A stretch of DNA of 64,000 bases, from assembly GCA_030220185.1 (NCBI GenBank), contig JASPKZ010007546.1:887501-951500 (forward strand), given 5' to 3'. This stretch comes from Diploptera punctata. Taxonomy: Eukaryota; Arthropoda; Insecta; Blattodea; Blaberidae. The position numbers were made by a program, and so were the translations under genes. This document shows positions 1,641 to 42,866 of this stretch, piece after piece. The first letter of the stretch is position 1. Each line of letters starts with the position of its first letter. The notes beneath the pieces were generated by a model. It ran no database searches. It saw nothing but the letters and a program-made list of their open reading frames with translations, and was not told where the DNA came from.

Positions 1641-2035
1641 AAATTAGTAACTGTGAGGTTTATTTTAATTATTATGAGTTAGGATATTTTCACTCACCTC
1701 ATATTTGTGATTTTCTTGCAGACTGCAGTTTCTATACTCTATGTGTTATCATCAATGCTTCCTAACTGTTGAATTTGCAGTTGGCAATCTTGTAGATTGA
1801 TTTCTGCTCTCTCTGTTGGCTGACCAATGAACTTCCAATTCAACTTTTTTTTTTCTTTTTCCCCGGGAATTTCAAAATTCATTGTTTTCTCTTAGTCTTG
1901 TGGATGTAAATTTTCTCCCAAATTGTGAGTTCCTTAAATTTATCTAACTGTTTCAGTAATTTGGCCTTTGTTTCGTTTCTGTGTTTTTCTGACCATGCAT
2001 GTTACCTCAAGAACAAAGAATATTCGATACAAAAG
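1641..2035 (-). mobile_element. PLE 3' fragment with EN tail, 5' truncated
   Basis: Reading on the minus strand: EN residues around ETKAKLL.QLDKF, ELTIWEKIYIHK, NEF.IPG and KFIGQPTE, then a ribozyme-like block (UUGAUGA ... GAAAC UGCAGU C at about 1712-1752), AATATGAGGTGAG, and CCTCACAG towards 1655. Several stops show that it is dead. It belongs to the same subfamily as the copy at 7606-8270. Confidence 0.7.
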
Positions 2036-4912: not shown

Positions 4913-5238
4913 TAAAATGAATCATCCTTTTAATTTAACTATACATCTTATATTCTTAAAATATCACATTTACATGGTTTTATTATATGTTCAAAGTTAA
5001 AATTGGGAAACACATTATGAGGTTCTTAATTAATAAATTAATGAGTCATAATGACTCATTAATTTATTATTATATGTTACCTAAAGAAGTAGGGTTTTGA
5101 TGAACATGTGCTATGTTCTGATTCTGGAACTTAAAATTTCACACCAAGTCATTTTGTTTTTAACTTTACTATATATAATTTCATTAAATTTATTGTATTT
5201 TTACACAACAATTAGTACAAACAAGTGTTAAATGAGAT
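4913..5238. repeat. Duplicated segment X, copy 1 (interrupted twice by PLEs)
   Basis: Starting at AATGAATCATCC.TTTAATTT this tract matches 10653-10985 closely. Copy 1 is broken by the 75 bp insertion at 4992-5066 and by the 2.1 kb insertion at 5239-7339, and resumes at 7352-7440. Copy 2 lacks both insertions, so it serves as an empty-site reference. Confidence 0.8.
4992..5066. mobile_element. 75 bp miniature PLE hairpin with 12-nt target duplication
   Basis: TTATTATATGTT occurs at 4980-4991 and 5067-5078. Between them lie a PLE 'long' end (CAAAGTTAAAATTGGGAAAC, CATTATGAGG) and a palindrome centred on AATGAGTCATAATGACTCATT. Copy 2 of segment X at 10711-10730 is uninterrupted at this point. 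The ends match the 237 bp insertion at 36482. Confidence 0.85.
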
Positions 5239-5284
5239 TAAGGTAGAATATGTTTATCACTCACCTCATATTGTTCTTCTTATT

Positions 5285-5337
5285 TGATTATAAACTAGTT
5301 TCGGAACATAGTTTCTGTTCCATCCTCAGTATCATCA
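5285..5337 (-). ncRNA. Hammerhead ribozyme, PLE subfamily A, intact core
   Basis: On the minus strand: stem I UGAUGAUA, core CUGAGGA, stem II GGAAC...GUUCC, GAAA, stem III AC-UA-GU, H17 = U, then UAUAAUCA returning stem I with one mismatch. It is identical to the plus-strand copy at 7203-7255. The core codons read TED G of the EN, and the EN stop codon UAG lies in stem III. Confidence 0.85.
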
Positions 5338-6290
5338 CGACCGTTGTTCTGTCGTCTTGAAGAGTTGTCCTTCTCTCCTTCCATTGGCTGACTGAAAAAC
5401 CTCGAAACCAGGTCATTCTCACCGGGAATTTCAAAGTTCATTAATTTCTTCTTTTCGCTCTTTTGAATGTAGATCTTTTCCCAAACAGTAAGTTCTTTTG
5501 GTTTTTCTATTTGTTTTAATAATTTTGCTTCTTTCTCGATAAGATGTTTTTCAGACCATGCATGGGCAGCCACTGCTGATTTTCTACTTCCCCTTTCTTG
5601 ACATTCCTGAGATGTTCTTTAACTCTAGTTTTCAAATTTCTTTTAGTTTTTCCTATGTAGAATTTCTCACATTCTTCACATTTAATTTGATAAATCCCTG
5701 ATTTGTTTCTTCTTTAATTTTCTCATTCTTATTAGGTCTAATCAGTCTACTGATGCTGTAGTCATTTTTGGGTGCTAACCTTATGTTGAAATCTTTAACA
5801 ATTTTTGAAACTTGTGGTGTTTTAATGGATGATATGTGAATTTTCTAAATTTTACATTATCTTCTTTTACTTTTAGAAGAGTGCTTTGATTAATAAATTT
5901 TTGTCTTTTGAACTTGCTTATTTTTTTGAGTATCATTTTTATAGCAAAACCATTTTTCGTGGCTACATTGATTATGTGTTCTTTTTCTGTTTCATAATTT
6001 TCTTTGTTCATTGGTATGTTCACTAATCTATGTGTCAAACTATTGAAAACTGCTTCTTTGTGAGCTATGTGATTGAAACCTAAAGCTTTTATGTAGTTAT
6101 CTATATGTGTCTTCTTTCTGTAAATTCCAAATTCTATCTTATTTTCTTCATTCCTTTTTAAGTTGAGATCTAAAAATGGTATTTCTCCATTGATTTCCTT
6201 TTCCATAGTGAACTTTATAGTTTGACTTTGAATGTTCAATAATTTTAATGCATCATCTATCTGTTTATGATTAACAGATAGATGATGCAT
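5295..6290 (-). pseudogene. PLE RT thumb plus GIY-YIG endonuclease, left arm (frameshifted)
   Basis: From 6290 down, the frame reads the C-terminal RT region typical of PLEs: INGEIPFLDLNLKR, FGIYRKKTHIDNYI and NSLTHRLVNIPM, ending near 5781 by frameshift. The endonuclease follows in another frame (GIY, CEECEKFYIGKT, LKTRVKEHL), then 5573-5295 gives AWSEKHLIEKEAKLL, ELTVWEKIYIQKSE and MNFEIPGEN. No RT catalytic YADD segment is present because the copy is 5' truncated at the dimer centre. The GIY-YIG nuclease nicks the target for insertion in this family. Confidence 0.8.
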
Positions 6291-6298
6291 TAAAATTA

Positions 6299-7245
6299 TT
6301 GAACATTCAAAGTCAAACTATAAAGTTCACTATGGAAAAGGAAATCAATGGAGAAATACCATTTTTAGATCTCAACTTAAAAAGGAATGAAGAAAATAAG
6401 ATAGAATTTGGAATTTACAGAAAGAAGACACATATAGATAACTACATAAAAGCTTTAGGTTTCAATCACATAGCTCACAAAGAAGCAGTTTTCAATAGTT
6501 TGACACATAGATTAGTGAACATACCAATGAACAAAGAAAATTATGAAACAGAAAAAGAACACATAATCAATGTAGCCACGAAAAATGGTTTTGCTATAAA
6601 AATGATACTCAAAAAAATAAGCAAGTTCAAAAGACAAAAATTTATTAATCAAAGCACTCTTCTAAAAGTAAAAGAAGATAATGTAAAATTTAGAAAATTC
6701 ACATATCATCCATTAAAACACCACAAGTTTCAAAAATTGTTAAAGATTTCAACATAAGGTTAGCACCCAAAAATGACTACAGCATCAGTAGACTGATTAG
6801 ACCTAATAAGAATGAGAAAATTAAAGAAGAAAACAAATCAGGGATTTATCAAATTAAATGTGAAGAATGTGAGAAATTCTACATAGGAAAAACTAAAAGA
6901 AATTTGAAAACTAGAGTTAAAGAACATCTCAGGAATGTCAAGAAAGGGGAAGTAGAAAAATCTGCAGTGGCTGCCCATGCATGGTGTGAAAAACATCTTA
7001 TCGAGAAAGAAGCAAAATTATTAAAACAAATAGAAAAACCAGAAGAACTTACTGTTTGGGAAAAGATCTACATTCAAAAGAGCGAAAAGAAGAAATTAAT
7101 GAACTTTGAAATTCCCGGTGAGAATGACCTGGTTTCGAGGTTTTTCAGTCAGCCAATGGAAGGAGAGAAGGACAACTCTTCAAGACGACAGAACAACGGT
7201 CGTGATGATACTGAGGATGGAACAGAAACTATGTTCCGAAACTAG
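6299..7245 (+). pseudogene. PLE RT thumb plus GIY-YIG endonuclease, right arm (frameshifted)
   Basis: Mirror of the left arm. Frame 6299-6757 carries the RT thumb. A shared 1-nt deletion near 6742 shifts the frame. The EN follows at about 6770-7245: SGIYQIKCEECEKFYIGKT, catalytic arginine in LKTRVKEH, AWCEKHLIEKEAKLL, ELTVWEKIYIQKSE, and the terminal EDGTETMFRN whose codons are the ribozyme core. The CxxC pair between GIY and YIG is typical of PLE nucleases. Differences from the left arm are few. Confidence 0.85.
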
Positions 7246-7255
7246 TTTATAATCA
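7203..7255 (+). ncRNA. Hammerhead ribozyme, PLE subfamily A, intact core
   Basis: Stem I strand 7203-7210 (UGAUGAUA); core CUGAGGA 7211-7217; stem II GGAAC/GUUCC with an 8-nt loop; GAAA 7238-7241; stem III A7241-U7246 and C7242-G7245 around UA; H17 = U7247; stem I return strand 7248-7255 (UAUAAUCA, one mismatch). Cleavage is predicted between 7247 and 7248. The minimal stem III resembles hammerheads reported from PLEs of other animals. Confidence 0.88.
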
Positions 7256-7443
7256 AATAAGAAGAACAATATGAGGTGAGTGATAAACATATTCTACCTT
7301 AATGAATATACCTCATAGTGAGAATTCCTAAAATAAGTAGTTAAATGAGATATTCATGATAGTCTCAATTCCTTTTAAAAGAAGCATTAACTTAATAAAA
7401 AAAGTGAATCTGGTTATCTTACCTCATAAATACTTGATGTTTT

Positions 7444-7605
7444 GTAAATTAATTAGTCATTTTTTACATCTTATCTCATATTTTATGTTTCTTTAAACAT
7501 GGGAACTAGTTTTCAAAAGAAAGATAAAATATGAGGTAAGATGTAAAAAATCACTCATTAATTTACGAATTAAGAACCTCGTAATATTATTTCCCATATT
7601 TAACT
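7444..7605. mobile_element. Short PLE inverted dimer
   Basis: ACATCTTATCTCATATTTTATG at the left is mirrored by ATAAAATATGAGGTAAGATGT at the right, around a core with GAACTAGTTTTC. The left side ends short (TTAATTAGTCATT). The right side runs on through AAGAACCTCGTAATATTATTTCCC, the usual long end. No endonuclease sequence remains. It sits just downstream of the end of segment X copy 1. Confidence 0.7.
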
Positions 7606-7706
7606 CACCTCATATTTGTAGATTAAGTATCCTTCAGACAGTTAAAGAAATTAGTAATATTCAAGAAATTTCTGCATATAATAAGTTTCAAAACATTTTC
7701 AGAAAA

Positions 7707-8189
7707 TTGAACATTAAATTAGCACTGAAAAAATATTATAGCCTGAATAGATTAATTAAAACCAACAAAAATGAAAACATTGATGAAGGCAACAAATCAG
7801 GAATTTATCAAATTAATTGCAAAGTCTGTAAAAAAATATACTTAGGAAAAACAAAAAAGGAACTTGAATACAAGATTGAAAGAACACCTTAGAAATGTAA
7901 AGAATGGGGAAGTAGAAAATTGTCATTAGTTGCATATGCATGGTCAAAAAAACACAGAATCAAAACAAAAGCCAAATTACTGAAACAGGTAGATAAATCT
8001 GAGGAATTCACAATTTGGGAGAAAATTTACATCCACAAAAATAGAAAGAAAATAATGAACTTTGAAATCCCTGGGGGAAAAAATTTTATTTGGAAGTTCA
8101 TCGGTCAGCCAACAGAGGGAGCAGAAATCAACCTACAGGATCACCAATCACCATTTCGAAAGTTGCAAAGAATTGATAATGATGCTTAA
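7707..8189 (+). pseudogene. PLE GIY-YIG endonuclease, subfamily with one frameshift
   Basis: NKSGIYQINCKVCKKIYLGKT gives the GIY..CxxC..YLG signature in frame 7707-7892. After a frameshift near 7870-7920 the frame continues with AYAWSKKHRIKTKAKLL, EFTIWEKIYIHKN, MNFEIPGG and FIGQPTEGAE. It ends at 8189, inside the hammerhead. It is diverged from the 5239 dimer but collinear with it. Confidence 0.8.
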
Positions 8190-8214
8190 AGCATTGAAAC
8201 CCTGGTCTTCAAGA
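8168..8214 (+). ncRNA. Hammerhead-like ribozyme with U3/A8 core
   Basis: Core UUGAUAA at 8173-8179 in place of CUGANGA; stem II GAUGC/GCAUU; GAAA at 8196-8199; stem III ACC-CU-GGU; H17 = C; GAA/UUC begins stem I. C3 to U and G8 to A change together, which keeps a Watson-Crick pair at the catalytic core. Confidence 0.65.
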
Positions 8215-8270
8215 AAGCTACATATATGAGGTGAGTCGTGCATATCTTACTCCTATTATTTAGTATTTAT

Positions 8271-8799
8271 TACCAACAATAGTCATGTGATATTACAATA
8301 GTTAGACATACAGACGAAAATATGAAAAATAATTTTGGGATATCATCATTGAATTACACACTTAAATTGTGTGAATCATAGATAAGATTATTTAAGCATG
8401 CAAGCATGACTGCTGACTGACTATTCGCAATTCTCAAAAACCATTCAAGTGTGGAGTTATATTTCCAAAGCAATTCTACCTTACCATGTCATATAAAATC
8501 ACATGTATTTTTCTGAAAAGTTTTCCAGTTTCAGAATTTTAAGAAGTTGGCCTCTCATAAAATAGAAGTATTCCTTTTTTTATTTCATGATATTGTATTT
8601 ATTTTGTTTGTTCAATGTACTGGCCAAGGTCATCCAATCATTTGTGTTAATAAAAATCATGTGTAATAATGTTCAAAAGTAATTGGCTGTCTCTTTTTTT
8701 GTTTTCATTGGTAGTGAATTAATCAATTTTATTATTATTGTACTCCTCAGAGACTGTGATATATAGGATCTTTCTTATATTACACAATTTTTAAAAATG
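8271..8799. other. No gene or repeat recognised
   Basis: AT-rich spacer between a PLE copy and a DNA transposon remnant; I see no coding or structural signal. Confidence 0.5.
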
Positions 8800-9275
8800 T
8801 AATAATTAAGTCAAAAATGCATCAAAATAAAAAATTATTATTTTTTATTTTCATTTACATGCACTCCCATTTAAGTGTGGGAAATTATATCAGGCATATG
8901 TCCACCTCCACTGCCTCGGCAGGCAGTTACTCGGCCTATGAAGTTCCTTCAGTCTGTGATCTCAATTCGTGGCGACTTGGAATGGCCTCCCAAATCTTTT
9001 GACATTACTCCATGTGACTTCTTTTTATGAGTTATTGTGAAGTCCAAAATCTACATGAACAAACCACAAACAGTTCTCCAACTTAAGGAAGAAATTCAAC
9101 GTCATCAACAGAGATGTCTGTGAAAGGGTTGTCACAAACTTCATAGACCGAGTAACTGCCTGCGGAGACAGTCAAAGTAGACATATGCCTGATACAGTTT
9201 TCCACACTGAAATGGGACGTATGTAGATAAAAAAAAAGTTTTATTTTGATGCATTTTTGACTTAATTATTGCATT
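8800..9275 (+). mobile_element. Deletion-derived DNA transposon keeping only the transposase C-terminus
   Basis: Terminal inverted repeats include AATTAAGTCAAAAATGCATC and a following A-rich run (8803-8835), mirrored at about 9225-9270. The interior plus strand reads SWRLGMASQIFDITPCDFFL, then KSKIYMNKPQTVLQLKEEIQ. This is the C-terminal end of a DDE transposase (ITPCDFFLWG..K..VY pattern), with stops. CTCGGCAGGCAGTTACTCGG near 8918 has an inverted partner near 9148. Confidence 0.75.
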
Positions 9276-9886
9276 AATTAAATATATGTAGGAAATGACA
9301 CTATTCTCTGTCCAACGTAAGAAGCACACTTTGACATTTAACTTCCGAATGTATTACTCTGCGTAACACGTGTGAGAGTTCAGGAGAACTCTGTCAGCTG
9401 TTTGTTATAAACCGATAAATTAATGCACAACAATCGTTTTAATTTTCAATGTTGCAGGTTGTATTAACATTTACAATGGTATGCCAAAAACTAATTAAAT
9501 TATAATTATTAATATTAAACAAAATTAATTTAAATTAAAATAACCGAGTTAAGTTAACATAAACTACCCGACAGCCACCATATTTCTAACTGACATTCAA
9601 CTTCTTCTCAAGAATCCTTCAGTTTCAAACAAATGCAAATTTTTAGTTAGTCTCCGACCTTCGAAGAAATATGTAAGTATATACTGCATTCTGATCAACT
9701 ATAGTTAACATATATATCTTTAAATACATAATTATATTAATCGAATACATGATCTATTTTTTCGCTTCTGCTGAACTGTGCTTTGGTCATGAACGAATCG
9801 GCCAGTAACTGCAGCAGTCATGTGCTTCATGGATTACCCGCCTATTTATTTTTCCTGAAGTATCTTTCTTAGGCTGGACAGAAAAT
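9276..9886. other. No gene recognised
   Basis: About 600 bases of AT-rich sequence with no supported feature up to the PLE end at 9887. Confidence 0.45.
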
Positions 9887-10036
9887 ATGAGGTTGGTTTT
9901 AATTATATTTGAGTTGTATATTTTGACTCACCTCATAGCATTGAGCATCGAGAATGTCGCACAGTTAGCGACAAAACTGGTCTGCATAAAAATCAAGAAA
10001 TATGAGGTGAGTCAAAATACACAACTCAAATATAAT
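9887..10036. mobile_element. PLE inverted dimer remnant
   Basis: GAAAATATGAGGTT at the left, ATTTTGACTCACCTCATAGC, then a plus-strand hammerhead-like block (UCGAGAA, GUCGC...GCGAC, AAAACUGGUC, UGC at about 9945-9986) and AAATATGAGGTGAGTC with the mirrored AAAATACACAACTCAAAT. It belongs to the subfamily of the 14710 dimer. The 3' side is cut by the next insertion. Confidence 0.7.
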
Positions 10037-10079
10037 AAATAAATTTAGTCTGGGTAATCTTCTAAGTACCAATAAAAAA

Positions 10080-10517
10080 GTAAATGTTCCAGACAGTAAG
10101 AAATCTGGAATTTATCAAATAAATTGTGAAGATTGCAATAAAGTTTATATAGGAAAAACAAAAAGGAATTTGGAAATTCGGACAAAAGAACATTTCAGAA
10201 ATATTAAAAATTGTGAAATTGAAAAATCTGCAATTGCTGCACATAGTTTATTAGAACATCATAAAATTGGAAGAGAAGCTAAACTTTTAAAACAAGTAGA
10301 GAAACCTTTGGAATTGGCAGTTTGGGAAAAAATATACATTCAGAAAAACAAAAATAGATCAATGAATTTTGATATCCCTAACAAAATTACATTGATTTTG
10401 AAGTTCATAAATTCAACCATAGATGGCAGCACTGAAGATGGCGACAATAGAATAGTTGACGGCCGAAGAATTTCGTCAGTCGGAGTTATGGCTGAAGATG
10501 AACATGACTATGTTTGA
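10080..10517 (+). CDS. PLE GIY-YIG endonuclease (open frame, 5' truncated)
   Basis: The frame is open from the element's truncated 5' side: KKSGIYQINCEDCNKVYIGKT holds GIY, CxxC and YIG, followed by the arginine of LEIRTKEHFRN, AAHSLLEHHKIGREAKLL, ELAVWEKIYIQKN and MNFDIPNK. The last codons cover the hammerhead at 10485. The ATG at 10170 is internal to the domain and is not a natural start. This is the best-preserved nuclease frame in the window, but no RT is attached. Confidence 0.8.
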   Translation, partial: VNVPDSKKSGIYQINCEDCNKVYIGKTKRNLEIRTKEHFRNIKNCEIEKSAIAAHSLLEHHKIGREAKLLKQVEKPLELAVWEKIYIQKNKNRSMNFDIPNKITLILKFINSTIDGSTEDGDNRIVDGRRISSVGVMAEDEHDYV

Positions 10518-10533
10518 AATCGCGATATCATGG
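10485..10533 (+). ncRNA. Hammerhead ribozyme, PLE subfamily B, intact core
   Basis: Stem I GUUAUGG (10485-10491) pairs with UCAUGG after the cleavage site, using G-U wobbles. Core CUGAAGA 10492-10498; stem II GAACAU/AUGUUU with loop GACU; GAAA 10516-10519; stem III A-U and U-A around CGCG; H17 = A10527. The copies at 43234 and 42867 differ from it by paired changes. Confidence 0.85.
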
Positions 10534-10960: not shown

Positions 10961-10981
10961 CATAAATACTTGATGTTTCAT

Positions 10982-11025
10982 TTGACATGTTTCGATATGT
11001 TGTCCATACCATCATCAGCTTGTCC
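10982..11025 (-). ncRNA. Hammerhead ribozyme with CUGAUGA core, PLE-associated
   Basis: Minus strand: CUGAUGA, stem II GGUAUG/CAUAUC with loop GACAA, GAAAC, stem III AC-AU-GU, H17 = C. The classical stem I is poor, but GACA before AAG-CUGAUGA can pair with UGUC that overlaps stem III, as in the relative at 49364 where this helix grows to 8 bp. The fold may differ from the standard one. Confidence 0.6.
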
Positions 11026-11380: not shown

Positions 11381-11614
11381 TTATTAAGGTAGAATTTTTT
11401 ATCACTCACCTCATATTGTTCTTTTTATTTGACTATAAACTAGTTTCGGAACATAGTTTCTGTTCCATCCTCAGTATCGTCATGACCGTTGTTCTGTCGT
11501 CATGACCGTTGTTCTGTCGTCATGAAGAGTTGTCCTTCGCTCCTTCCATTGGCTGACTGAAAAACCTCGAAACCTTAATGAATATACCTCATAGTGAGAT
11601 TTCCAAAATAAGTA
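11381..11614. mobile_element. 234 bp PLE insertion with asymmetric ends
   Basis: ACAATCTTGTAT at 11369-11380 and ACAATCTAGTAT at 11615-11626 are the target duplication (11/12). Inside, a minus-strand subfamily A 3' end with hammerhead is joined after CCTCGAAACC directly to the plus-strand tip TTAATGAATATACCTCATAG. The plus arm is thus reduced to the terminal about 40 bases. A 20-nt unit ending GTTGTTCTGTCGTCATGA is tandemly repeated near 11485-11525. Confidence 0.85.
11430..11482 (-). ncRNA. Hammerhead ribozyme, PLE subfamily A, with stem I covariation
   Basis: Same structure as the copy at 7203 with core CUGAGGA and GAAA intact. Stem I reads UGACGAUA / UAUAGUCA against UGAUGAUA / UAUAAUCA: a U-A pair has become C-G by two matching changes. 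Confidence 0.88.
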
Positions 11615-14697: not shown

Positions 14698-14709
14698 ATT
14701 TGTATTATT

Positions 14710-14912
14710 TATATTTGAGTTGTGTGTTTTGACTCACCTCATATTTCTTGATTTTTATGCAGACTAGTTTCGTTGCTAACTGTGAGAATGTCGCACAGTT
14801 AGCGATGAACCGGTCTGCATAAAAATCAAGAAATATGATGTGAGTCAAAACACGCAACTCAAATGTAATTCAAATAAACCTCATAGTGTTATTTCCTACA
14901 TTTATTTAATAA
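14710..14912. mobile_element. 203 bp PLE inverted dimer with 12-nt target duplication
   Basis: ATTTGTATTATT at 14698-14709 and 14913-14924. The arms TTGACTCACCTCATATTTCT and its mirror meet inside the hammerhead stem II (ACAGTTAGC region, about 14795), so each arm keeps only the 3' half of a ribozyme (GAAAC UAGUC UGC in the left arm, GAACCGGUC UGC in the right). The right arm carries the long end AAACCTCATAGTGTTATTTCC. Confidence 0.88.
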
Positions 14913-17734: not shown

Positions 17735-17820
17735 AGGAAACACTATGAGGTATTTCTATTAATAAAATGAGTTGGAAGGAAAATGTTTTTTAACATCGCA
17801 CCTCACAAAAGTTGCGTGTC

Positions 17821-17872
17821 TTCACAATACCGGTTTCAAAAGTTTAGTATTACTTCCATCTTCAGTCAAATT
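17821..17872 (-). ncRNA. Hammerhead ribozyme, PLE subfamily C
   Basis: Minus strand: CUGAAGA, stem II GGAAGU/ACUUUU, GAAA, stem III AC-CG-GU, H17 = A. Stem I starts with UGA/UUG-type pairs and is weak. Mirror of 18247-18299. Confidence 0.7.
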
Positions 17873-18246
17873 CCAACTGTTGAAATTTCGTCGTTAACAT
17901 TATCTTCTGAACTGCCATCTGGTGTAGATTTTATGAACTTGGAGATTAAATTATTCTTGTCGGGGATATCGAAATTCATTGCTTTATATGGTGAAATTGA
18001 AAAATTGGCAATTGCAGCTCATAGTTTGCTAGAAAATAATAAAATCGGAAAAGACACTAAACTTTTGAAACATTTGGAAAAACCTTTAGAATTGACAATT
18101 TGGGAAAAGATATACATTCAGAAGAATAAATATAAACCAATGAATTTTGATATCCCTGACGAGAATAATTTAATCTCCAAGTTCATAAAATCTACACCAG
18201 ATGGCAGTTCAGAAGATGATGTTAACAACGAAATTTCAACAGTTGG

Positions 18247-18299
18247 AATTTGACTGAAGATGGAAGTAATAATATACTTTTGAAACCGGTATTGTGAAG
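18247..18299 (+). ncRNA. Hammerhead ribozyme, PLE subfamily C
   Basis: CUGAAGA at 18253-18259; stem II GGAAGUA/UAUACUUUU with G-U pairs; GAAA at 18281-18284; stem III AC-CG-GU; H17 = A. The EN stop codon (UGA) lies just before the core, so in this subfamily the coding part ends slightly earlier than in subfamily A. Confidence 0.72.
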
Positions 18300-18417
18300 A
18301 CACACAACTTTGTTAGGTGAGATGTTAAAACATTACTTATTTTAGGAATTCTCACTATGAGGTATATTCATTAAGGTAGAATATGTTTATCACTCACCTC
18401 ATATTGTTCTTCTTATT

Positions 18418-18470
18418 TGATTATAAACTAGTTTTGGAACATAGTTTCTGTTCCATCCTCAGTATCATCA
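18418..18470 (-). ncRNA. Hammerhead ribozyme, PLE subfamily A, G12 mutated
   Basis: Same as 7203-7255 except that GAAA reads AAAA, which should abolish cleavage. All stems are intact. Confidence 0.75.
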
Positions 18471-19072
18471 CGACCGTTGTTCTGTCGTCTTGAAGAGTTG
18501 TCCTTCTCTCCTTCCATTGGCTGACTGAAAAACCTCGAAACCAGGTTATTCTCACCGGGAATTTCAAAGTTCATTAATTTCTTCTTTTCGCTCTTTTGAA
18601 TGTAGATCTTTTCCCAAACAGTAAGTTCTTTTGGTTTTTCTATTTGTTTTAATAATTTTGCTTCTTTCTCGATAAGATGTTTTTCAGACCATGCATGGGC
18701 AGCCACTGCAGATTTTTCTACTTCCCCTTTCTTGACATTCCTGAGATGTTCTTTAACTCTAGTTTTCAAATTTCTTTTAGTTTTTCCTATGTAGAATTTC
18801 TCACATTCTTCACATTTAATTTGATAAATCCCTGATTTGTTTTCTTCTTTAATTTTCTCATTCTTATTAGGTCTAATCAGTCTACTGATGCTGTAGTCAT
18901 TTTTGGGTGCTAACCTTATGTTGAAATCTTTAAAAATTTTTTGAAACTTGTGGTGTTTTAATGGATGATATGTGAATTTTCTAAATTTTACATTATCTTC
19001 TTTAACTTTTAGAAGAGTGCTTTGATTAATAAATTTTTGTCTTTTGAACTTGTTTATTTTTTTAAGTATCAT
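18428..19072 (-). CDS. PLE RT thumb and GIY-YIG endonuclease, longest unbroken PLE frame
   Basis: 214 codons without interruption: FRKFTYHPLKHHKFQKIF (RT C-terminal), NKSGIYQIKCEECEKFYIGKT (GIY, CxxC, YIG), TRVKEHLRN with the catalytic arginine, AVAAHAWSEKHLIEKEAKLL, ELTVWEKIYIQKSE with a candidate catalytic glutamate, then EDGTETMFQN. It is 5' truncated at the dimer centre. It shows that the copies at 5239-7339 have lost a base near 5802/6742. There is no natural start codon here. Confidence 0.8.
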   Translation of the reverse strand: MILKKINKFKRQKFINQSTLLKVKEDNVKFRKFTYHPLKHHKFQKIFKDFNIRLAPKNDYSISRLIRPNKNEKIKEENKSGIYQIKCEECEKFYIGKTKRNLKTRVKEHLRNVKKGEVEKSAVAAHAWSEKHLIEKEAKLLKQIEKPKELTVWEKIYIQKSEKKKLMNFEIPGENNLVSRFFSQPMEGEKDNSSRRQNNGRDDTEDGTETMFQN

Positions 19073-19236
19073 TTTTATAGCAAAACCATTTTTCGTGGCT
19101 ACATTGATTATGTGTAGCCACGAAAAATGGTTTTGCTATAAAAATGATACTTAAAAAAATAAACAAGTTCAAAAGACAAAAATTTATTAATCAAAGCACT
19201 CTTCTAAAAGTTAAAGAAGATAATGTAAAATTTAGG

Positions 19237-23545: not shown

Positions 23546-23624
23546 ACAATAGGAAATAACATTATGAGGTTTTACTTAATAATTAAGTTTGGTCTGTGTA
23601 TTCTTACCTCATATAGTTGCTTCT

Positions 23625-23675
23625 GTTGGACATATGTTTCAAAGCATTTTTGCCCCATCCTCAGCTAGTACAGAC
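23625..23675 (-). ncRNA. Decayed hammerhead ribozyme in a PLE arm
   Basis: Minus strand: CUGAGGA, stem II GGGGC/GCUUU with wobble pairs, GAAAC, stem III ACA-UA-UGU, H17 = C. The core is complete, but stem I is not convincing. Confidence 0.55.
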
Positions 23676-24884: not shown

Positions 24885-25637
24885 TTAAACTGTTCTTATT
24901 ATATCTGGCTTCCTATAAAGACCATGTAGTTCATTGTTATGTAGTCTTCTCCATTCACCTGTCTGTTCATCTCTCTTTGGTCCAAAAATTTTCCTAAGAA
25001 CTTTATTCTCAAATACTCGTAATCTCCTTTCCTCCCTTAAAGTAAGAGTCCATGTTTCGCACCCATATAATATAACTGGTAGAACAATAGTTTTATATAT
25101 TTTCAGCTTAACGTTTTTTGAAAGCAGTTGGGACATCAAAAGTCTCTGCAATGCATAATAGCATGCATTTCCAGAATTGAGCCTATGTTTAATTTCTTTG
25201 TGCATCTCATTCCTATTTGTGATTATTGTTCCTAGGTATTTGAATTCAGCCAATTCCTCAAAATTTCCCTCATTTGTCATTAGCTGTCCATTTCCATTAT
25301 ATAATGTATTTCTACGTGTGACCATATATTTAGTTTTACTGATATTTACTTCCAGTCCTAATTTCTTAGTGTTACTCAATAGTGTGTGCGTGTTGGCCTT
25401 TAGTATCTCCTCGCTATCGGCCAGTAGTACTACATCATCAGCATAAACTAACAGTTTATTAATACCATTGAGTTGTAAGCCTTCCTCATTCTCTAAAGAT
25501 TTAATGGCATGCTCTAGTACAAAATTAAATAGTAGAGGAGATAGTGCATCTCCTTGCTTTAACCCATTCTGGATTTCAAAAGTGTCTGAAAACTGTTTGC
25601 CTACACGCACCCTACTCGTTGAGCCACTTAGACACAT
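24885..25637 (-). pseudogene. RTE reverse transcriptase, palm and connection
   Basis: FEIQNGLKQGDALSPLLFNF, then LLVYADDVVLLADS with the catalytic YADD box, EVNISKTKYMVT, FKYLGTIITNRN, KTIVLPVILYGCETWTLTLR. 250 codons are open. The first RT blocks lie in other frames upstream (25640-26029), separated by shifts. Confidence 0.88.
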
Positions 25638-26028
25638 TCGTATAAGTCTAACTAACTTTTTAGGAATTCCAAACTCCAGCAGGATACTATATAACTTCTC
25701 CCTCTTAATTGAATCATATGCTTTTTTGAAGTCTACATATAGTTGATGTACAGTACCATTATATTCCCATTTCTTTTCTAAAATCTGTCTTATACTAAAA
25801 ATCTGATCTGTTGTAGACCTGTTTCTTCTAAATGCACATTGATGATCTCCTAGAATGTCATCAATATAGGGAGTAAGTCTGCTTACTAATATATTTGTTA
25901 GAATTTTGTACGAAGTTGAAAGTATGAGATGCCCCTATAGTTGTTGCAATCAGTTTTATCTCCTTTCTTATAAATTGGTACGATAATTGATTCCTTCCAT
26001 TCATCTGGAAGAGCTTCTTTTTCCCAAA

Positions 26029-26625
26029 TCATATAAGCAACCAGCGTATCTTGTCCATCAATTTTTCTCCCCCTGATTTTATCAGTTCTGCTGGGATCTC
26101 ATCTGAACCTGATGCTTTATACATCTTCAATTTTTCAATTGCCATTTCAACCTCTAATGCACTTGGCTCTGCGACTAGCATTTCTGCTGTCTGTAAGTTA
26201 TTCTCCTCAATGTCCTGTTCTGTATGTACATTTAATAGCTGATTAAAATAACTTTTCCATCTATTTAATATACTCTTGGAATCTGCAATCATATCCCCAT
26301 TTTCATTCCGAATTATGTTTGTTCTAGCCTGAAACCCTTTCTTCTCTATACTAATTCCCTGATATAATTCTCTAATGTTCCTATTTTTTGCATTCATTTC
26401 AAGATCATTAATCTTCTCTCTCAAATATTCCCTCTTTTTACTCTTTAGTAACTTGGTGGTTTCCCGTCTAACACTACCCAATTGCTCTAAATTTACCTCA
26501 TTTGGCTCGTGTAACCATTTAATTTTTGCTAGCTTTCTTTTCTTTACAATGTCGGCACATTCCTCATCAAACCATTTCTTGTTTTGCCTCTTTTTTAAAC
26601 AACCAATGCTTTCTGATGCTGACAA
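26029..26625 (-). pseudogene. RTE linker and RT N-terminal region
   Basis: KKRQNKKWFDEECADIVKKR, YLREKINDLEMNAKNRNIRE, LYQGISIEKKGFQAR, FNQLLNVHTEQDIEENN, and KASGSDEIPAELIKSGGEKL, the block leading into the RT fingers. It ends with a frameshift at 26029 (RWLLI). Confidence 0.85.
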
Positions 26626-26799
26626 TTTAATAGTATCTCTTATAGCCTCCCATTCTTTATTTATATCAGTTTCTTCTTCATTGCCACATTGTCATCTGAA
26701 GATTCCAGTACTTCAAATCTATTAGCAATTTTGATTTGGTATTCTTGCCGCATTTCATCATTTTTCAAGTTTTTTAATTCATATTTTACAGAATCATCT

Positions 26800-27675
26800 T
26801 TAGCGTTTGTTCCTCTCATAAGCGATAGCCGTTGTGCTGATTTTCACCCTGACCAGATGATGATCTGAATTGCAGTCTGTCCCTCTAACTGATCTAACAT
26901 CAATGATGCTACTGTGCCAGCGTTTATCCACTAATACATGATCTATCTGGTTCCGAGTTTCTCCATCTGGGGACGTCCAGGTGTATTTATGAATATCCTT
27001 ATGCTGAAATGTTGTGCTCTTAACAACGAGATTCTTTGATATGGCAAATGTGACTAATCTAACCCCATTGTCGTTACTATCTTTATGAAGACTGCATTTG
27101 CCTATTGTTGGTTTGAATATATCTTCCCGCCCCACTTTTGCATTAAAATCTCCTAAGACAATTTTCATATGATATCGTGAAAGGCTATCAAATAAGCATT
27201 CTAATTCTTCATAGAACTCATCCTTGATCTTGTCATCTTTATCTTCTGTGGGGGCATGTACATTTACAATTATAAAATCATGTCGTTTACCCTTTAGAAT
27301 TATGTATGATATCCTATCACTAACAAACTTAATATCTCGGATAGCGGATAGGATCCTCCTTCTGACTAAAAAACACGTTCCAAATGCAGGTCTTTCTGCA
27401 CCCCCATAGTATAATGAAAAGCTTCCTGATTCCTGACTACCTTCTCCTGGCCACCTAACTTCCTGCAAAGCGACTATATCCAAGGGCGATTTATCCAATT
27501 CCCGCGTTAATATCTCTAGTGCCCCACTATTGTATAAAGTCCTAACATTCCATGTTCCTAGGAACATGTCCCTGTGTTTGAGCCTTTGGCATGGGTTCCC
27601 TGAAGTAGTCCCCGCCCGGAGAACCGAATGGGGGACTATTTGACCTCTGGAAAATTTTACCCCAGTAGAACCCAT
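26800..27675 (-). pseudogene. RTE apurinic-like endonuclease domain
   Basis: 291 codons: FLGTWNVRTLYNSGALEILT, DIVALQEVRWPGEG, FIIVNVHAPTEDKDDKIKDE, IVLGDFNAKVGRED, NQIDHVLVDKRW, TDCNSDHHLVRVKI. These are the N, E, H..PT, GDFN, D and SDH active-site blocks, all present, so this domain itself looks intact. It makes the nick that primes reverse transcription. The frame is lost at 26800 before the RT. Confidence 0.9.
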
Positions 27676-27853
27676 GTCCGCATTTCTTGACGGTTGTATT
27701 TTTATGTTGAAAGATCGTCACTCTTTCGACCAAGGTACTTATTTCGTCTGGCTTATCACCTTCGACCAGTCCGGCATGGGTAACCCTATCGGCAGCAATG
27801 CTACCGCCGGCATAGCTCTCAGGATCATTTAAGCACACAAGCCACTCCACCAC
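27542..27853 (-). other. RTE 5' leader / short upstream frame
   Basis: GC-richer than its surroundings. It carries an open frame (ESYAGGSIAADRVTHAGLVE) that overlaps the start of the endonuclease frame. It lies where RTE elements have a 5' UTR or small ORF1. I cannot say whether it is translated. Confidence 0.45.
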
Positions 27854-28074: not shown

Positions 28075-29060
28075 TTAGATCTAATTTAAACTTAGAAATA
28101 CCATTTTTAGATCTAAATTTACAAAGGAATGAAGAAAATAAGATAGAATTTGGAATATACAGAAAGAAGACACATATAGAATACTATATAATAGCTTCAG
28201 GTTTTAATCACATAGCTCACAAAGAAGCAGTTTTCAATAGCTTGACACATAGATTAGTGAACAGAAAATTATGAAAAAGAAAAAAGAACACATGATCAAT
28301 GTGGCTATAAATAATGGATTTGAAGAAATAATGATACACAAGAAATTAAACCAAGTTCAAAAGACAAAAATTTATTAATCAAAGTACACTTCTAAAAGAA
28401 AAAGAAGAAAACATAAATTCATTAATGAAAGTACTCTTCAGACGGATAAAAATATAGGCAAAAAATTCAAGAAGTTCACATACCATCCTTTAGTATTTGA
28501 CAAGTTTCAAAAAATTTTCAACATTAAATTAGCACCGAAAAATGATTACAGCTTAGGTAATTTAATAAAACCAACAAAAATGAAAAGATTGAAGACTGCA
28601 AAAAATCGGGAATTTATTAAATTAATTGTAAAGATTGTGAAAAGATATACATAGGAAAAACAAAATGGAATCTAAATACAAGATTAAAAGAACACCTCAG
28701 AAATGTTAAAAATGGAGAAACTGAAAAATCTGCAATAGCTGCACATGCCTGGTCAGAAAAACATAGAATAGAAACCAAAACAAAATTACTTAAACAATCG
28801 GAAAAACCGAAGGAACTCACAATTTGGGAAAAAATTTACATATGCAAGAATGAAAATACAACTATGAATTTTGAAATACCCGGTTATAAGGAGAGAGGAC
28901 TGATTTGGAAATTCTTCAGTCGGCCACCAGATGGCGCGGAGGTCAGTCTGCAGGATAGAAGGCCATTGGACGTCAGTTGTGAACGTGACACAGCATTGAG
29001 AATGTCACAAATAATGTGAAGAAACCCTAGGTCTGCTATGAATTATGAAGTATGAGGTGA
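28075..29060 (+). mobile_element. PLE plus-strand arm, facing the 23550-28070 arm
   Basis: RT thumb (EIPFLDLNLQRNEENKIEFG, IYRKKTHIEYYIIASGFNHI) with internal duplications around 28350-28440, then the GIY-YIG domain (KSGIY.INCKDCEKIYIGKT at 28608-28670), AAHAWSEKHRIETKTKLL, and a hammerhead followed by GAAGTATGAGGTGAGTG at 29045. The two arms belong to different subfamilies, unlike the recent dimers. Confidence 0.75.
28992..29037 (+). ncRNA. Hammerhead-like ribozyme with U3/A8 core
   Basis: AGCA, core UUGAGAA (28996-29002), stem II GUCAC...GUGAA, GAAA, stem III ACC-CUA-GGU, H17 = C, then UGCU pairing with AGCA. Against CUGANGA the changes are C3 to U and G8 to A, which can pair with each other. 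It is shared with 40457-40501. Confidence 0.7.
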
Positions 29061-29094: not shown

Positions 29095-30250
29095 AAATTC
29101 AAGAAATTCACATATCATCCATTGAAGCACCAATTTTTTTTTTTTTAATTTCAACATAAGATTGGCACTGAAAAACGACTTCATCATCATTAGATTAATT
29201 AGATCTAACAAAAATGAGAAAATAGAAGAAGAAAACAAAACGAGATATCAGATTAAATGTGGAGAATGTGAGAAAGTCTACATAGGGAAAACAAAGAGAA
29301 ATTTGAAAATTAGAGTGAAGAACATCTCAGGAATGTCAAGAAAGGGGAAATTGATAAGTTTGCAGTGACATGGTCAGAAAAACATCTTATCAAAAGGAAG
29401 GGCAAAATTACACTGGTCAACATTATTTCTGTCTCATGAGTACCAATAGTTGTACTTACTTAATGCAGTTTTTTATTGTGTTTTCAAATATGTATTTGGA
29501 ATTTCTCCATCACTCACAGTTTTTTTTATTTGAATTTCAATTAATGGATTTAAATAATTATTTTTTTAATAAACCTAGATTTCTTCCCGGAAAATCTTGG
29601 CGCAGTGAGCGATGAGCATGGGGAACACTTTCATCAGGAGATTTCAGCTATGGAAAAGAGATATCAAGGCACATGGAATCGTTATATGCTAGCCGATTAT
29701 AGTAGGACCATCAAGAGGGATGCTCCACAGGCGAAATATAGCAGAAAATCGTCATTTCTTACTTTCTAGGTGAGTCTGAATGTTCGAATGTTGTGTAGTT
29801 ATGAATGTAGAAAATATTAAAGTGTTTGAAATTATAAATGCCTGACTCTCAGAAACCTTGTGTAATGGAGAAAAACCGATATCATATTTGAATTCAGGAG
29901 AAAAAATACTATCAGAATCACATATTTTTCTTCCTGAGACAAAAAAAAGTTTTTTTGTTGCTCAGTGTTGTTAAAACAAATAGAAAAACCCAAAGAACTG
30001 ACTGTTTTGGGAAAATCTACATTAAAAAAAACGAAAAGGAGAAATTAATGAATTTTGAAATTCCCATGGAACATGTTTTGATTCTGAGGTTTTTCAGTCT
30101 ACCAACAGAGGGTGCAAAAGATGGCTCTTCAGGACAACAAAACAATGGTTGTGGAAGTACTGAAGACGGTACCTAAGAATGTGCTGAAGCTAGACTAATA
30201 GGATGAAAAATATGAGGAGAGTGATAAAATTATACATAAATGAAAGACTC
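29095..30250 (+). mobile_element. PLE plus strand, EN part split by a DNA transposon
   Basis: TTGAAATTTCACATATCATCC-like RT-thumb end, then NKTRYQIKCGECEKVYIGKT and LKIRVKNISGMSRKGK (29162-29368), broken at 29410. It resumes at 29968 with LLKQIEKPKELTV, MNFEIP and LPTEGAKDGSSGQ. The end overlaps a decayed ribozyme (CUGAAGA, GGUAC...GUGCU, GAAGC at about 30163-30205) before AAATATGAGGAGAGTG. Confidence 0.75.
29411..29967 (+). mobile_element. 557 bp DNA transposon with CACTG ends in a PLE endonuclease
   Basis: Ends CACTGGTCAACATTATTTC and the complement of GTTGCTCAGTG form imperfect inverted repeats. Removing it restores the EN frame (AKLLKQIEK) with a 3-bp TTA/TTG duplication. Inside, frame 29582-29769 reads ENLGAVSDEHGEHFHQE, MEKRYQGTWNRYMLADYS and ends KSSFLTF*. 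I know this peptide only as a repetitive element piece. A CMC/CACTA-like superfamily is possible but not shown. Confidence 0.65.
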
Positions 30251-30924: not shown

Positions 30925-31651
30925 ATCTCTTCTTAGGTCTTCCTGGGTCTCTTCGCCCTGTGGGTCTGTAATTCAATAGCTGCAGAGGTAGTCTATTGTT
31001 TGGCATTCTCAGAAGGTGTTCATGCCAATTATTTTGATATTTTTGAATGATTTCAGTTATTGCTGGTGGGTTGAGAGCTTTGCAGATATCTTCATTACGT
31101 ATGTGATCATAAAGCGTATAACCTGCTAAAGGTCTTAATAACTTCATTTCTGCAGCTACTATCCTATTTAATTTACCTGTAGTAAGAGTCCAGGTTTCAG
31201 AACCATAAAGTAGAGTTAGAAGAGCCATTGTTTTATAAAATTTTAGAATTGTATCTGGACGTACTTTTCGGAAAAGAATGCTTTTTATTGTTCCTATAAG
31301 TTTTTGAAATTTGACCAATTTTATGTCTATGTCTTTACATGTGTCATAGGAAAGATTGCAGCCAAGATAAGTAAAGTTATTAACTTGTTCTATTATATTG
31401 TTGTTAATAACAATTTTAGTTCGTATCGGTATTTTCCCTTGAAACGCCATAGTTTTTGTCTTACTCACCGAAATTTGTAAATTATAATCTTGGGTTATAT
31501 TTGACAATCTATGTATTGCTCTTTGTAGGTGATCTTCAGAAGAAGCCAATATTACTTGATCATCTGCATACATTAATGTGTTGAGGGGTCGACCATCAAT
31601 CATAAAGTGTGATTGTGATTGGTTTTGCCATATTTTTATGATTTCATTCAT
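30923..31651 (-). pseudogene. LINE 2 RT palm to C-terminus
   Basis: LNTLMYADDQVILASSEDHL holds the catalytic YADD. Then ISVSKTKTMAFQGKIP, NNFTYLGCNLSYDT, YGSETWTLTTGKLNRI, RNEDICKALNPPAITEI, and NNWHEHLLRMPNNRLP with GRRDPGRPKKR. It is truncated at 30923 by the SINE target site. Confidence 0.88.
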
Positions 31652-32287
31652 ATATAAATTAAATAGAAGAGGGGAAAGTGGACACCTTGGGATATTAGTC
31701 TATCTGATTTGCTGATTTCATTATTTATTTTTATTCGAATTCGTGTGTTATGATACATGCTTTGAATCGCTTGAATTAAATGCTTGGGTATTCCTGCATT
31801 ATGTAAGATATCCCATAATTTTATTCTGTTTACTGTGTCGAAGGCTTTATGATAATCAATGAATATCATAAAAGTTGGTATATTAAATTCTCTATGTTTT
31901 TCTATGATTTGTGCTAACGTAAAGACACTATCTATACAGGATCTGTTGGGTCTGAAAACCATTTCGTTCTTCTAGGATAATTGCATTAGAAATTGTGTTT
32001 AATCTGTTGGTAATTATTTTTGCATAAATTTTATAGGCAGCATTTAGCAGACAAATTCCTCTATAATTATTAATATCATTTTTGTTTCCTTTTTTATGAA
32101 TAGATACAACTAACAAGTTATTCCATTCATCTGGTACACAGCCAGTCTTCCAACATATATTAATAAGATCTAAAAATTTGTTTAAGAATCGGATCGAAGC
32201 ATATTTTAATAATTCTGTGTTGATATGATCTGATCCTGGTGTCTTCCGTAGTTTGCATTTGTATAACGCGAAGTTCAACTCATCCAA
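31648..32287 (-). pseudogene. LINE 2 RT fingers and palm, two overlapping frames
   Basis: 32287-31928: KTPGSDHINTELLKYASIRF, LVVSIHKKGNKNDINNYRGI, CLLNAAYKIYAKIITNRL. 31962-31648: NRSCIDSVFTLAQIIEKHRE, FMIFIDYHKAFDTVNRIKLW (the F.DY.KAFD block), ISKSDRLISQGV. A shift near 31945 separates them. Usual LINE RT order. Confidence 0.87.
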
Positions 32288-33640: not shown

Positions 33641-34035
33641 TTGCATTTGTCGTCTTTGTGATATCAGTCCGGTCATTTCTTTCCTTTAGATTCTGAGTAT
33701 GTATAGATCTCCTCAGAATGGGTTACCAACCCATCGCTGAGAAAGTTCAGTGGTGGGGTTGCCACCTTGAGGCCTCTGAACTTGCCTGCTTTTCTGTTTG
33801 GGAGTGCTCCCATAGCCAGTGGGTCCGGTTTATGAGTGCCGGAATCTCGCTCTCACCCTCTCCCATCTGCTGTAATTATGAGTTACATTGTCCAGAGGTC
33901 ACGATGAGGACGTGGGAGTAGGATTTGCTGGTAGAGCTGCCTGGTCTTATGATAGTTGGCTTTACACAACATTTTATAGAGCATGCCAATCTGGCATTAA
34001 CAGCTCCACTGTGGCCATTGCCAGCCTTTATTTTA

Positions 34036-36481: not shown

Positions 36482-36718
36482 TCAAAGTTAAAATTGGGAA
36501 ACACATTATGAGGTTCTTAATTTATAAATTAATGAGTCATTTTAACATCTTACCTCATATTTCCTGTTTTATCAAACACGGTAACTATAGTTTTCAAATG
36601 ATCTTGTCATTCATGGCGGTTGAAAATGAATGACAAGATCATTTGAAAACTATAGTTACCGTGTTTGATAAAACAGGAAATATGAGGTAAGATGTTAAAA
36701 TGACTCATTAATTTATAA
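36482..36718. mobile_element. 237 bp PLE inverted dimer with 12-nt target duplication
   Basis: ACTTACTTGTAT at 36470-36481 and 36719-36730. The arms (about 105 bp, virtually identical) meet at about 36617. Each arm carries CATCTTACCTCATATTTCC and a hammerhead-like block (UUGAAAAUG, GAAUGA/UCAUUU, GAAAAC UAUAGUU, with CGGU/ACCG as an outer helix). The left end is long (CAAAGTTAAAATTGGGAAAC, CATTATGAGG); the right end is short (AATGACTCATTAATTTATAA). Confidence 0.88.
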
Positions 36719-36814
36719 ACTTACTTGTATATTGAAATTAGATATTAACTTGACTTAGTTTAAATTAATCAGATGCATTTTGTACTAGTTGTGGAAATAA
36801 ACAAATTTGTTATA

Positions 36815-38294: not shown

Positions 38295-38770
38295 CAATGG
38301 TAAAGAGAAAAATTTTTGCCTGAACTGGGAATCGAACCCCAAAACTTCAGCTTTCTGTGCTAATGCTCTGTCCACTGAGCTAATTTAGGCTTCATTCCCA
38401 TCCAAGCGAAAATCCTTCCTTTATCTTACTCTACTGGTCCCACAGTCAATTGCAATGAATCATCATTCACAAATACGCAATGAACAGCTTTCTACATTAA
38501 GAAGACAAGAAGGGACTCCACACAGCTATAGCATTATTTATTAAATTAATATTGAGAAGCTAAAGCTATTACTATGATAGAAATAAGTAAATTAATGAAC
38601 ACAATTAAATTATTGTAAATCAATGGTAAAGAGAAACATTTTTGCCTGAACCAGGAATCGAACCCCGAAGCTTTAGCTTTTCATGCTAATGCTCTGTCCA
38701 CTGAGCTAATTTAATTTACTTATTTCTATCATAGTAATAGCTTTAGCTTCTCAATATTAATTTAATAAAG
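38295..38770. repeat. Two tRNA-like SINE copies and an inverted repeat
   Basis: Minus-strand SINE copies at about 38295-38400 and 38612-38706 (AAAATTTTTGCCTGAAC, GGAATCGAACCCC). The second is enclosed by an inverted pair: GAGAAGCTAAAGCTATTAC with ATGATAGAAATAAG at 38550-38590 and its mirror at 38715-38760. The same 60-base unit stands next to the LINE tail at 2036. Confidence 0.7.
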
Positions 38771-38778: not shown

Positions 38779-40075
38779 TGAGGTGTGATCAATAAGTTTC
38801 CGGAATGAGGCCATAAACACAACACAACACTTCAAAGTTTCTATTCAGCACTGTCACCCTCGAAGTAATAACCTTGGGAGTTGATACACTTGTCCCAGCA
38901 CTTCTGCCAATGCTGGAAGCACTTCTGGAAGTCGTCTTCTTTAAATGTGTCCAATGCCTTCTGCGATTCGCGCTGGATGACATCAATGTCCTCAAAACGA
39001 TGTCCTCGGAGCCGAATCTGCTGGAGCCAGATCTGGAGAATAGGCTGGATGGGGAACAGTACTCATCCTATTTTTGTCCAAAAACTGGCGGACAGAAATT
39101 GCTTTGTGCGCAGGCGCATTGTCGTGATGCAGGAACCAGTCACCAGTCCTCCATTTCTCTGGCCGTTTGCGTCGCATACTCTCCCTCAATCTTTGCAACA
39201 CTTGTTTGTAGTACACTTGATTCACTGTTTGACCCCGTGGTACAAATTCCTTATGCACAATTCCATTAATGTCAAAAAAAAACAATCATCATTGACTTCA
39301 CATTCGATCGAACTTGTCTGGCTTTCTTGGGGCGTGGAGATGCAGGACTCTTCCATTGCGAAGACTATTGTTTAGTTTCTGGATCGTAGCCATTTATCCA
39401 TGTTTCATCACCAGTAATAACCTTTTCCATGAACCGTGGGTCATTTTTAAGCTGTTCTTTAAGATCTGTGCAGGCAATCACACGACTTTCCTTTTGGCCA
39501 TTTGAAAGGAACTTCGCAGCAATTCTTCACATGTTCAAATCGTCTTTCAAAATGCTTTGAACACTTCCAAACGAGAGTGCTAGTGCATCAGACAGTTCTG
39601 GTATTGTAATGCGCCTATCATTTAATACCATGTCACTCGCTCGATCGATATTTTTATTGGTTTTGCTGGAAGTTGGTCGTCCCAGACAATTTTCATCCTT
39701 AACCGATGTCACGCCCCTTTTAAATTTCGAAAACCACTCAAATGCTTGAGATTTGCCCATTGCTTCCTCCCCATAAGCTGTTCTTAACATTTGATATGTT
39801 TCTGTTACAGTTTTACCAAGTTTAAAGCAAAATTTGATGCATGTTCTTTGTTCCTCGTAATCCCGCATTGTTGCTACACAGAGAAATCGCCGCACGCACA
39901 AAACATGTCTTCACTTCAGAGCTTCTACCAGTATACTGCAAGGTCAGAGAAGGTCGTGCGACCCCTCAAATTCACCACAAGGAAATTCTGAGTGTACAGC
40001 CTGGGTGAAAATTAAAAACTCCTCAATGGCATAATTGTTTTGAAGCCATTCCAGAAACTTATTGATCACACCTCG
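38779..40075 (-). mobile_element. mariner transposon, 1.3 kb, with both inverted repeats and TA duplication
   Basis: TGAGGTGTGATCAATAAGTT at the left and the complement of AACTTATTGATCACACCTCG at the right, each flanked by TA. The minus strand carries a full but frameshifted transposase. It lies immediately upstream of the first recognised host exon (about 70 bp away), so it is either in an intron or close to an exon border. Confidence 0.92.
38810..39900 (-). pseudogene. mariner transposase (D,D34D type), inactivated
   Basis: 39901-39527: MRDYEEQRTCIKFCFKLGKT, AFEWFSKFKRGVTSVKDE, GRPTSSKTNKNIDRASDMVL (HTH part). Around 39430-39290 the catalytic ITGDETWINGYDPE region is out of frame. 39285-38992: FFDINGIVHKEFVPRGQTVN (second D), WFLHHDNAPAHKAISVRQFL, HPAYSPDLAPADS, where a small deletion removes the FFLFP part. 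LRGHRFEDIDVIQRESQ lies downstream in another frame. Several lesions, so not functional. Confidence 0.9.
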
Positions 40076-42489: not shown

Positions 42490-42866
42490 TCTCTCAAAAC
42501 AATGCATAAGTTAAAAATAAACCTTAATGCTATTTATCAGTTGAGTGGCAGAACATGAAGTATAAAAGTGGAGTGAATTTTCATTGGACATACACACACT
42601 CATGCGTAAAAGCAAAAAGAATCCTCAAGCTGTTCCTCACAGAGAACTTCTCACTACTCCTTATCCTCCCTTGTTTTGGGAAATTTGCCATTGAAATTGA
42701 GTGAAAATGAGAAAGACATAAAGAATGTAATGGAATAACATTAAATGGAAAATAAATACTGAAAACTGATTAAGTTAGAAATTTTTCTAACTGAATCATT
42801 GTTCAATATGTAAAATTCATCGGAGAACATTTTTTTTAAACAACTAACCTCATAGAATTCATGCTT

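Follow-up and report, generated by a model that had tools for sequence, protein, structure and literature searches.

Predicted hammerhead ribozymes overlap the end of the endonuclease frame in Penelope-like elements of Diploptera punctata

Can the last codons of a nuclease also be the core of a self-cleaving RNA, and, if so, does selection act on the protein, on the RNA or on both? This question is raised by a stretch of 64,000 nucleotides (nt) of Diploptera punctata DNA (assembly GCA_030220185.1, contig JASPKZ010007546.1, positions 887,501-951,500, forward strand), hereafter the window. Judged by their sequence, the repeats studied here are 5'-truncated copies of a Penelope-like retroelement, in which the last piece of gene is a GIY-YIG endonuclease (EN). 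A previous, sequence-only reading of the window had placed a hammerhead ribozyme over the final EN codons near position 7203, and had proposed that the two are bound together by dual selection. Herein, we describe the overlap in all the families in which we found it and weigh what may maintain it. All comparisons between copies were made with copies inside the 64-kb window, some of which were shared between pairs and some of which are decayed.

The reference copy, A1a, has an EN frame on the forward strand at 6694-7245 (183 amino acids between stops, 5'-truncated), whose stop codon TAG (7243-7245) lies inside a predicted type I hammerhead at 7204-7254. Stem I is formed by GAUGAUA and UAUAAUC with one mismatch, and the core CUGAGGA (7211-7217) is followed by an extra U at 7218. 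Stem II (7219-7237) has six base pairs (bp) and is followed by GAAA, of which GAA occupies 7238-7240; then come the self-complementary stem III, ACUAGU (7241-7246), and the H17 nucleotide, a U at 7247. The EN codons across the core are ACT GAG GAT GGA, encoding T-E-D-G, and the EN stop falls in stem III, 2 nt 5' of the predicted cut at 7247/7248. The motif claimed at this locus is present as described, with its core, stop and predicted cut, except that the extra nucleotide after A9 was absent from that account. A splice-donor-like ATGAG/GTGAGT lies on the same strand at 7271-7281, 23 nt 3' of the predicted cut.

To search both strands of the window, we used a descriptor consisting of the core, stem II, GAAA, stem III, U16.1-H17 and stem I (at least 3 bp). 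It gave 10 matches, compared with a mean of 0.07 and a maximum of 1 in 60 dinucleotide shuffles. In all 10, A9 is separated from stem II by one extra nucleotide, and none was found without it (shuffle means 0.07 and 0.08, respectively). Since the canonical core, in which stem II directly follows A9, had no descriptor match, it was rejected, and we call the motif a hammerhead variant. The core reads YUGANRA in 10/10 matches and the strict CUGANGA in seven. Across the 20 rows drawn, the extra nucleotide is U in 18, a count to be read with the fact that the script gave every row one such nucleotide. Copy A3b (C3 at 43241) fell outside the 10 matches because of a mismatch in its stem III, and copies A5, B1 and B2 were picked up via the downstream ATGAGG motif rather than via the descriptor. 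An extra residue at this point is reportedly tolerated in the hammerhead of the viroid CChMVd, as de la Pena and Flores are said to have found in 2001; there the extra base is a different one and there is no reading frame, whereas the motifs in the window combine an extra nucleotide with an EN frame.

Stem II carries the strongest signal. When each of 10 families was represented by a single row, 49 of 50 stem II cells were paired, compared with a shuffled mean of 28.9 and with no value as high in 20000 shuffles, although seven of the 10 families had been found by a descriptor that itself demands stem II and stem III pairs. Over all 20 rows, 96 of 100 cells were paired. When 14 rows were aligned, 92.9% of 70 cells were paired, and 23 cells had changed on both sides, compared with 6.3 after shuffling (0/500 shuffles as high); the covariation score was 1.000, and at most 0.242 on a slid alignment. 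Judged from these alignments, stem II is conserved as a pairing and not as a sequence. Stem III is perfectly self-complementary, with 6-10 nt, in 11 of the 20 rows; it is missing in A1r2, and the script cut it one base too long in A6b and A6c. As a prediction, the hammerhead has good support, and chance is a very unlikely source of the motif. A family lacking the EN, with copies on the forward strand at 9948 and 23143, has the core UCRAGAA and AAAA in place of GAAA; it has kept stem II, in which an A-U pair of one copy is a G-C pair in the other.

The protein side of the overlap is equally recognizable. Pfam assigned GIY-YIG to four EN frames, with E-values of 7.2e-08 (6694-7242, in A1a), 5.1e-07, 3.7e-07 and 9e-05; no Pfam family was assigned to the frame at 17771-18250. 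The alignment of six EN sequences from five families contains CxxC and YIGKT, and CxxC before YIG is what we take to be the EN layout of Penelope-like elements. Comparing the EN domain of A1a with those of A2a, A3a, A4a and A5, we obtained pN of 0.19-0.23 and pS of 0.69-0.88; several dN/dS values of 0.00 reflected saturation of pS and were left unused. By these ratios, purifying selection acts on the EN domain between families. Below an E-value of 0.01, a PDB search gave only I-TevI-like endonucleases. One EN protein had two 38-residue matches among viral contigs (L001, L002), and the EN alignment found no relatives in either viral or genome contigs. A pattern search for a hammerhead plus the downstream motif returned a single contig (L003), which had no hammerhead on inspection by eye. 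The copies are truncated upstream of the EN, and the telomerase-like reverse transcriptase (RT) was not found in the same open reading frame (ORF). RVT_1 matches occur at 24888-25934 and 30926-31699 and were not assigned to the Penelope-like element.

Where does the EN frame end? In one copy each of A1, A2, A3, A4, A5 and B, no stop interrupts the frame between the nuclease motif and the ribozyme; the product of the six shuffle probabilities is 2.8e-7, with the reservation that the copies were picked after the frames had been seen, B2 being included and B1 excluded. Read from the codon that holds C3, the A1 peptide is TEDGTETMFRN, and C3 is the second codon base. Two further A1 copies lie on the reverse strand: the hammerhead of A1b at 5280-5341 (C3 5329, stop 5297-5295), with the same overlap as in A1a, and that of A1d at 11425-11486 (C3 11474, stop 11442-11440). 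The EN frame of A1c (18428-19135, reverse strand, 235 amino acids) passes through its hammerhead copy (C3 18462), in which GAAA has become AAAA. The peptides of decayed A1 relatives are TEDGT and NEDGTEV, each followed by a stop; the former belongs to A1r1 (30153-30200, forward strand, C3 30160, stop 30174-30176), whose extra nucleotide is C.

C3 is also the second codon base in A2 and A3. The A2a hammerhead (8166-8212, forward strand, C3 8173, predicted cut 8207/8208) has the core UUGAUAA, and its EN ends in IDNDA with TAA at 8187-8189 in loop II; A2b (1712-1767, reverse strand, C3 1755), with a decayed stem II, ends in IDDNT (stop 1741-1739). The A3a EN frame (10011-10517, forward strand, 168 amino acids) stops at TGA 10515-10517, which is U11.1-G12-A13 of a hammerhead at 10486-10533 (C3 10492, predicted cut 10527/10528). 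The three A3 peptides are AEDEHDYV, AEDEHDCA and AGDEHDCV, the second being that of A3b (43235-43282, forward strand); A3c (42860-42920, reverse strand, C3 42908) has one core base altered. C3 is the first codon base, giving the frame CUG, in A5 (28985-29042, forward strand, C3 28996), where the EN ends in LRMSQIM with TGA at 29017-29019 in stem II, and in B2 and B3, which read LMM. In A4a (18242-18300, forward strand, C3 18254), TGA at 18251-18253 lies directly 5' of the core; A4b (C3 17865) is on the opposite strand. The hammerhead-like motif of B2 (10978-11025, reverse strand, C3 11018), with stem I unpaired as drawn, is crossed by an EN frame that stays open beyond the predicted cut. B1 has such a motif as well (23624-23671, reverse strand, C3 23664), and its EN frame stops 28 nt short of C3. 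As B1 and B2 differ by an indel, one of them being frameshifted, the B frame is uncertain.

On these sequences, the overlap of a Penelope-type EN tail with a predicted hammerhead is real, and it occurs in more families than the earlier reading had claimed. That reading had extended the overlap from 7203 to 10485, 43234 and 8168; the motif is present at each of these, and the EN frame reads into it. The overlap does recur, but the four subfamilies reduce to three, because 10485 and 43234 belong to a single one (85.0% identity over 266 columns). The stop lies in stem III, as had been stated, in the 7203 family only; elsewhere it falls in loop II or stem II, coincides with U11.1-G12-A13 or immediately precedes the core. 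Such scattered positions are what would be expected if the frame simply ended at the first stop. An EN stop clear of the ribozyme, the kind of exception that in the earlier reading would refute its claim, was found in the single copy B1, although either B1 or B2 is frameshifted. A universal rule of overlap in one frame was rejected, with A5 and B in another frame, A4 stopping before the core and B1 stopping 28 nt before C3.

We assign a probability of about 0.7 to the following explanation: these copies would share a compact Penelope-like 3' end, where selection maintains the RNA structure and the peptide is carried along as a passenger; the overlap would be a sign of compaction and not of a protein function that depends on the core. 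Under this explanation, the unit would end with a minimal type I hammerhead, in which stem III is short and frequently self-complementary and A9 is followed by one extra nucleotide. The sequence itself shows that the EN frame, having no 3' untranslated region, enters or just reaches the ribozyme and ends at whichever in-frame stop is available there. In a tandem transcript, the cut would come after one unit's EN stop and 16-23 nt before the ATGAG/GTRAG of the following unit, and would thereby separate the units; stem III would pair best between two ribozyme copies. The RNA would be the target of selection, and the final 5-11 residues of the EN, from C3 on, would be passengers of the ribozyme sequence.

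The putative unit boundary is marked by a downstream motif. ATGAGGTRAG or a near variant lies 16-23 nt downstream of the predicted cut in 14/14 rows. The motif occurs at 31 places on both strands (19 with GTGAG and 12 with GTAAG), for example at 7271, 8226 and 10547 on the forward strand and at 11414 on the reverse strand, and also in solo repeats; ATGAGGTYAG occurs once. By its purine/pyrimidine bias, the motif resembles a splice donor, AG/GTRAG. Penelope-like elements can carry an intron in the pseudo-LTR; in the window, no acceptor site or second exon was found, and no search for either was made beyond the motif. In several families of this genome, the predicted cut falls between the nuclease frame's end and ATGAG/GTRAG at a nearly constant distance, which offers a concrete and testable unit boundary.

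Besides the reservations already attached to the counts above, several observations weigh against this explanation. The window shows no full-length element, no tandem array and no RT assignable to the element. Rfam gave no hammerhead family in the window at gathering score or at an E-value of up to 10, so the covariance-model check that had been suggested for the ribozyme came out negative; the extra nucleotide after A9 may be why the Rfam models miss these ribozymes. When eight monomers were folded, the three-way junction appeared in only one minimum-energy structure (A5), as could be expected with so short a stem III, and folding z-scores ranged from -2.30 (A1a) to +0.66. The B rows as drawn have almost no stem I, with 0-1 bp beside the core, and in B2 and B3 the frame CUG runs on beyond the predicted cut. 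Other frames are open as well, one in A1a and both in A2a.

Pseudo-LTRs of Penelope-like elements stand in tandem or inverted arrangement; the window shows inverted pairs, at 36521-36719, 57130-57353 and 42811-43338, and no tandem unit was seen in it. EN copies of one family form head-to-head inverted pairs at 43034-43338, 17788-18330 and 5237-7339. Head-to-head inverted terminal repeats are found at 36521-36719, 57130-57353, 14709-14868 and 49223-49467; their axis coincides with the ribozyme core, lies near it or falls slightly 5' of it, being the C3 position at 36620 and lying 12 nt upstream of C3 at 57241.5.

Next, we considered whether the protein and the RNA constrain each other, as the sequence-only reading had proposed. 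The acidic C-terminal tail would then matter to the nuclease, and the core would be held in the frame that encodes it. In A1, A2 and A3 alike, the frame is xCU GAN RAU and the tail is acidic, but other families have another frame and other residues. E-D-G itself, said to be kept to fit the core, is present in the 7203 family and in its decayed relatives at 1535 and 30160, and is replaced by AEDE at 10485 and 43234, by IDND at 8168, and by IDDN, LRMS or LMM in other copies; its retention as a fit to the core was accordingly rejected. Beyond the (D/E)G pair, no column is conserved among the six aligned EN sequences from five families.

The codon-level analysis of the EN tail that had been suggested was carried out on seven pairs of related copies, with copies shared between pairs. 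Differences by codon position were 20/26/25 in the linker, with no third-position excess; over the core and the 5' strand of stem II they were 3/7/10, a slight third-position excess that counts for dual selection and against a passenger peptide. The changed codons there were 8 synonymous and 10 nonsynonymous, compared with 15 and 40 in the linker. However, in the frame xCU GAN GAU the RNA consensus leaves only the wobble positions (N7 and the extra nucleotide) free, so that selection on RNA alone imitates codon constraint; as proof of dual selection, codon constraint is confounded and was rejected. The stem II 5' differences among A1/A1r1 and A3 copies (GGA/GGT, GAA/GAG, CAT/CAC) are synonymous, but those between A2a and A2b are nonsynonymous. 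Between A3a and A3b, a stem II pair changed from A-U to G-C on both sides; one change is synonymous, and the other, which keeps the stem paired, alters V to A. Over the overlap, pN was 0.22 and pS 0.71 for A1a and A1r1 (9 codons), as dual selection would have it, and 0.70 and 0.54 for A1a and A2a. With varying core peptides, two frames, no conserved tail column and no third-position excess in the linker, the tie between nuclease C-terminus and ribozyme was not borne out: the window copies do not support dual selection, which we regard as unlikely.

The ribozymes might instead be vestigial, carried along in the terminal repeat and no longer needed, in which case the overlap would be without consequence. 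Core bases are indeed altered in A1c, A1r2, A3c, A6b and A6c. These changes sit in single copies, however, and would fit decay after insertion, and a vestige would be expected to lose the stem II pairing, which has been kept through double changes across families. We consider a vestigial origin rather improbable. Another explanation would treat the overlap as a switch: ribosomes completing the EN would pass over the core strand, keeping the ribozyme unfolded and translated transcripts whole, and untranslated RNA would fold, pair through stem III to another ribozyme copy and be cleaved after the EN stop, ahead of the next unit's ATG. If this were true, translation and template processing would be mutually exclusive on one RNA. 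The overlap does raise the question of whether nuclease translation and ribozyme folding compete, but the switch is in our view a long shot. Chance, or an artefact of inverted repeats and AT-rich composition, is very improbable: the copies C1 and C2 do sit in large palindromes, but shuffles averaged 0.07 matches and stem II covaries.

How does the preferred explanation, a compact 3' end under RNA selection, relate to known systems? Hammerheads of Penelope-like elements are known, as the earlier reading had stated; they are of type I with a reduced helix III, and dimer cleavage has been proposed (PMC7761336, PMC6155905, PMC7229834). The predicted ribozymes of the window resemble these minimal type I hammerheads in their order, in their reduced helix III and in their association with Penelope-like elements, and differ from them, as far as they are described there, in the extra nucleotide between A9 and stem II and in the overlap with the C-terminal EN codons. 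The role of such hammerheads has been called a mystery (PMC7761336). In PAc, a Poseidon element of Anolis carolinensis, a hammerhead likewise overlaps a Penelope-like reading frame, but at the ORF start: C3 and G8 precede the start codon, and the cut is 26 bp inside the ORF (PMC11167929). In the window, the overlap is at the EN end, and the next ATGAG motif follows the predicted cut by 16-23 nt. The PAc ribozyme required protein for cleavage, and insertion in vitro could do without the ribozyme (PMC11167929). Rotifer Terminon hammerheads also lie near the 3' end of Penelope-related elements; they adjoin telomeric repeats, and the available part of the report states no overlap with an EN frame (PMC6431247). 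No published hammerhead over an EN end was found in a literature search that missed the main survey papers on these ribozymes. The EN-end overlap and the extra nucleotide would be a variant of the known Penelope-like hammerheads.

The window contains several other features. Five tRNA-like matches above the Rfam gathering score, at 38318-38708 (reverse strand) and 41001-41630 (both strands), are perhaps tRNA genes or tRNA-derived repeats. A DUF4817 helix-turn-helix (HTH) lies at 81-764 on the forward strand, and a Mos1-type HTH at 39530-39910 on the reverse strand. On the reverse strand, 24888-27717 holds a LINE-like RT preceded by an endonuclease/exonuclease domain. Taken together, these three features would fit an arthropod genome. 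Finally, a weak match to the ribozyme drz-agam-1 at 33856-33934 on the reverse strand (23.1 bits compared with a gathering score of 37, E-value 3.3) is probably due to chance.
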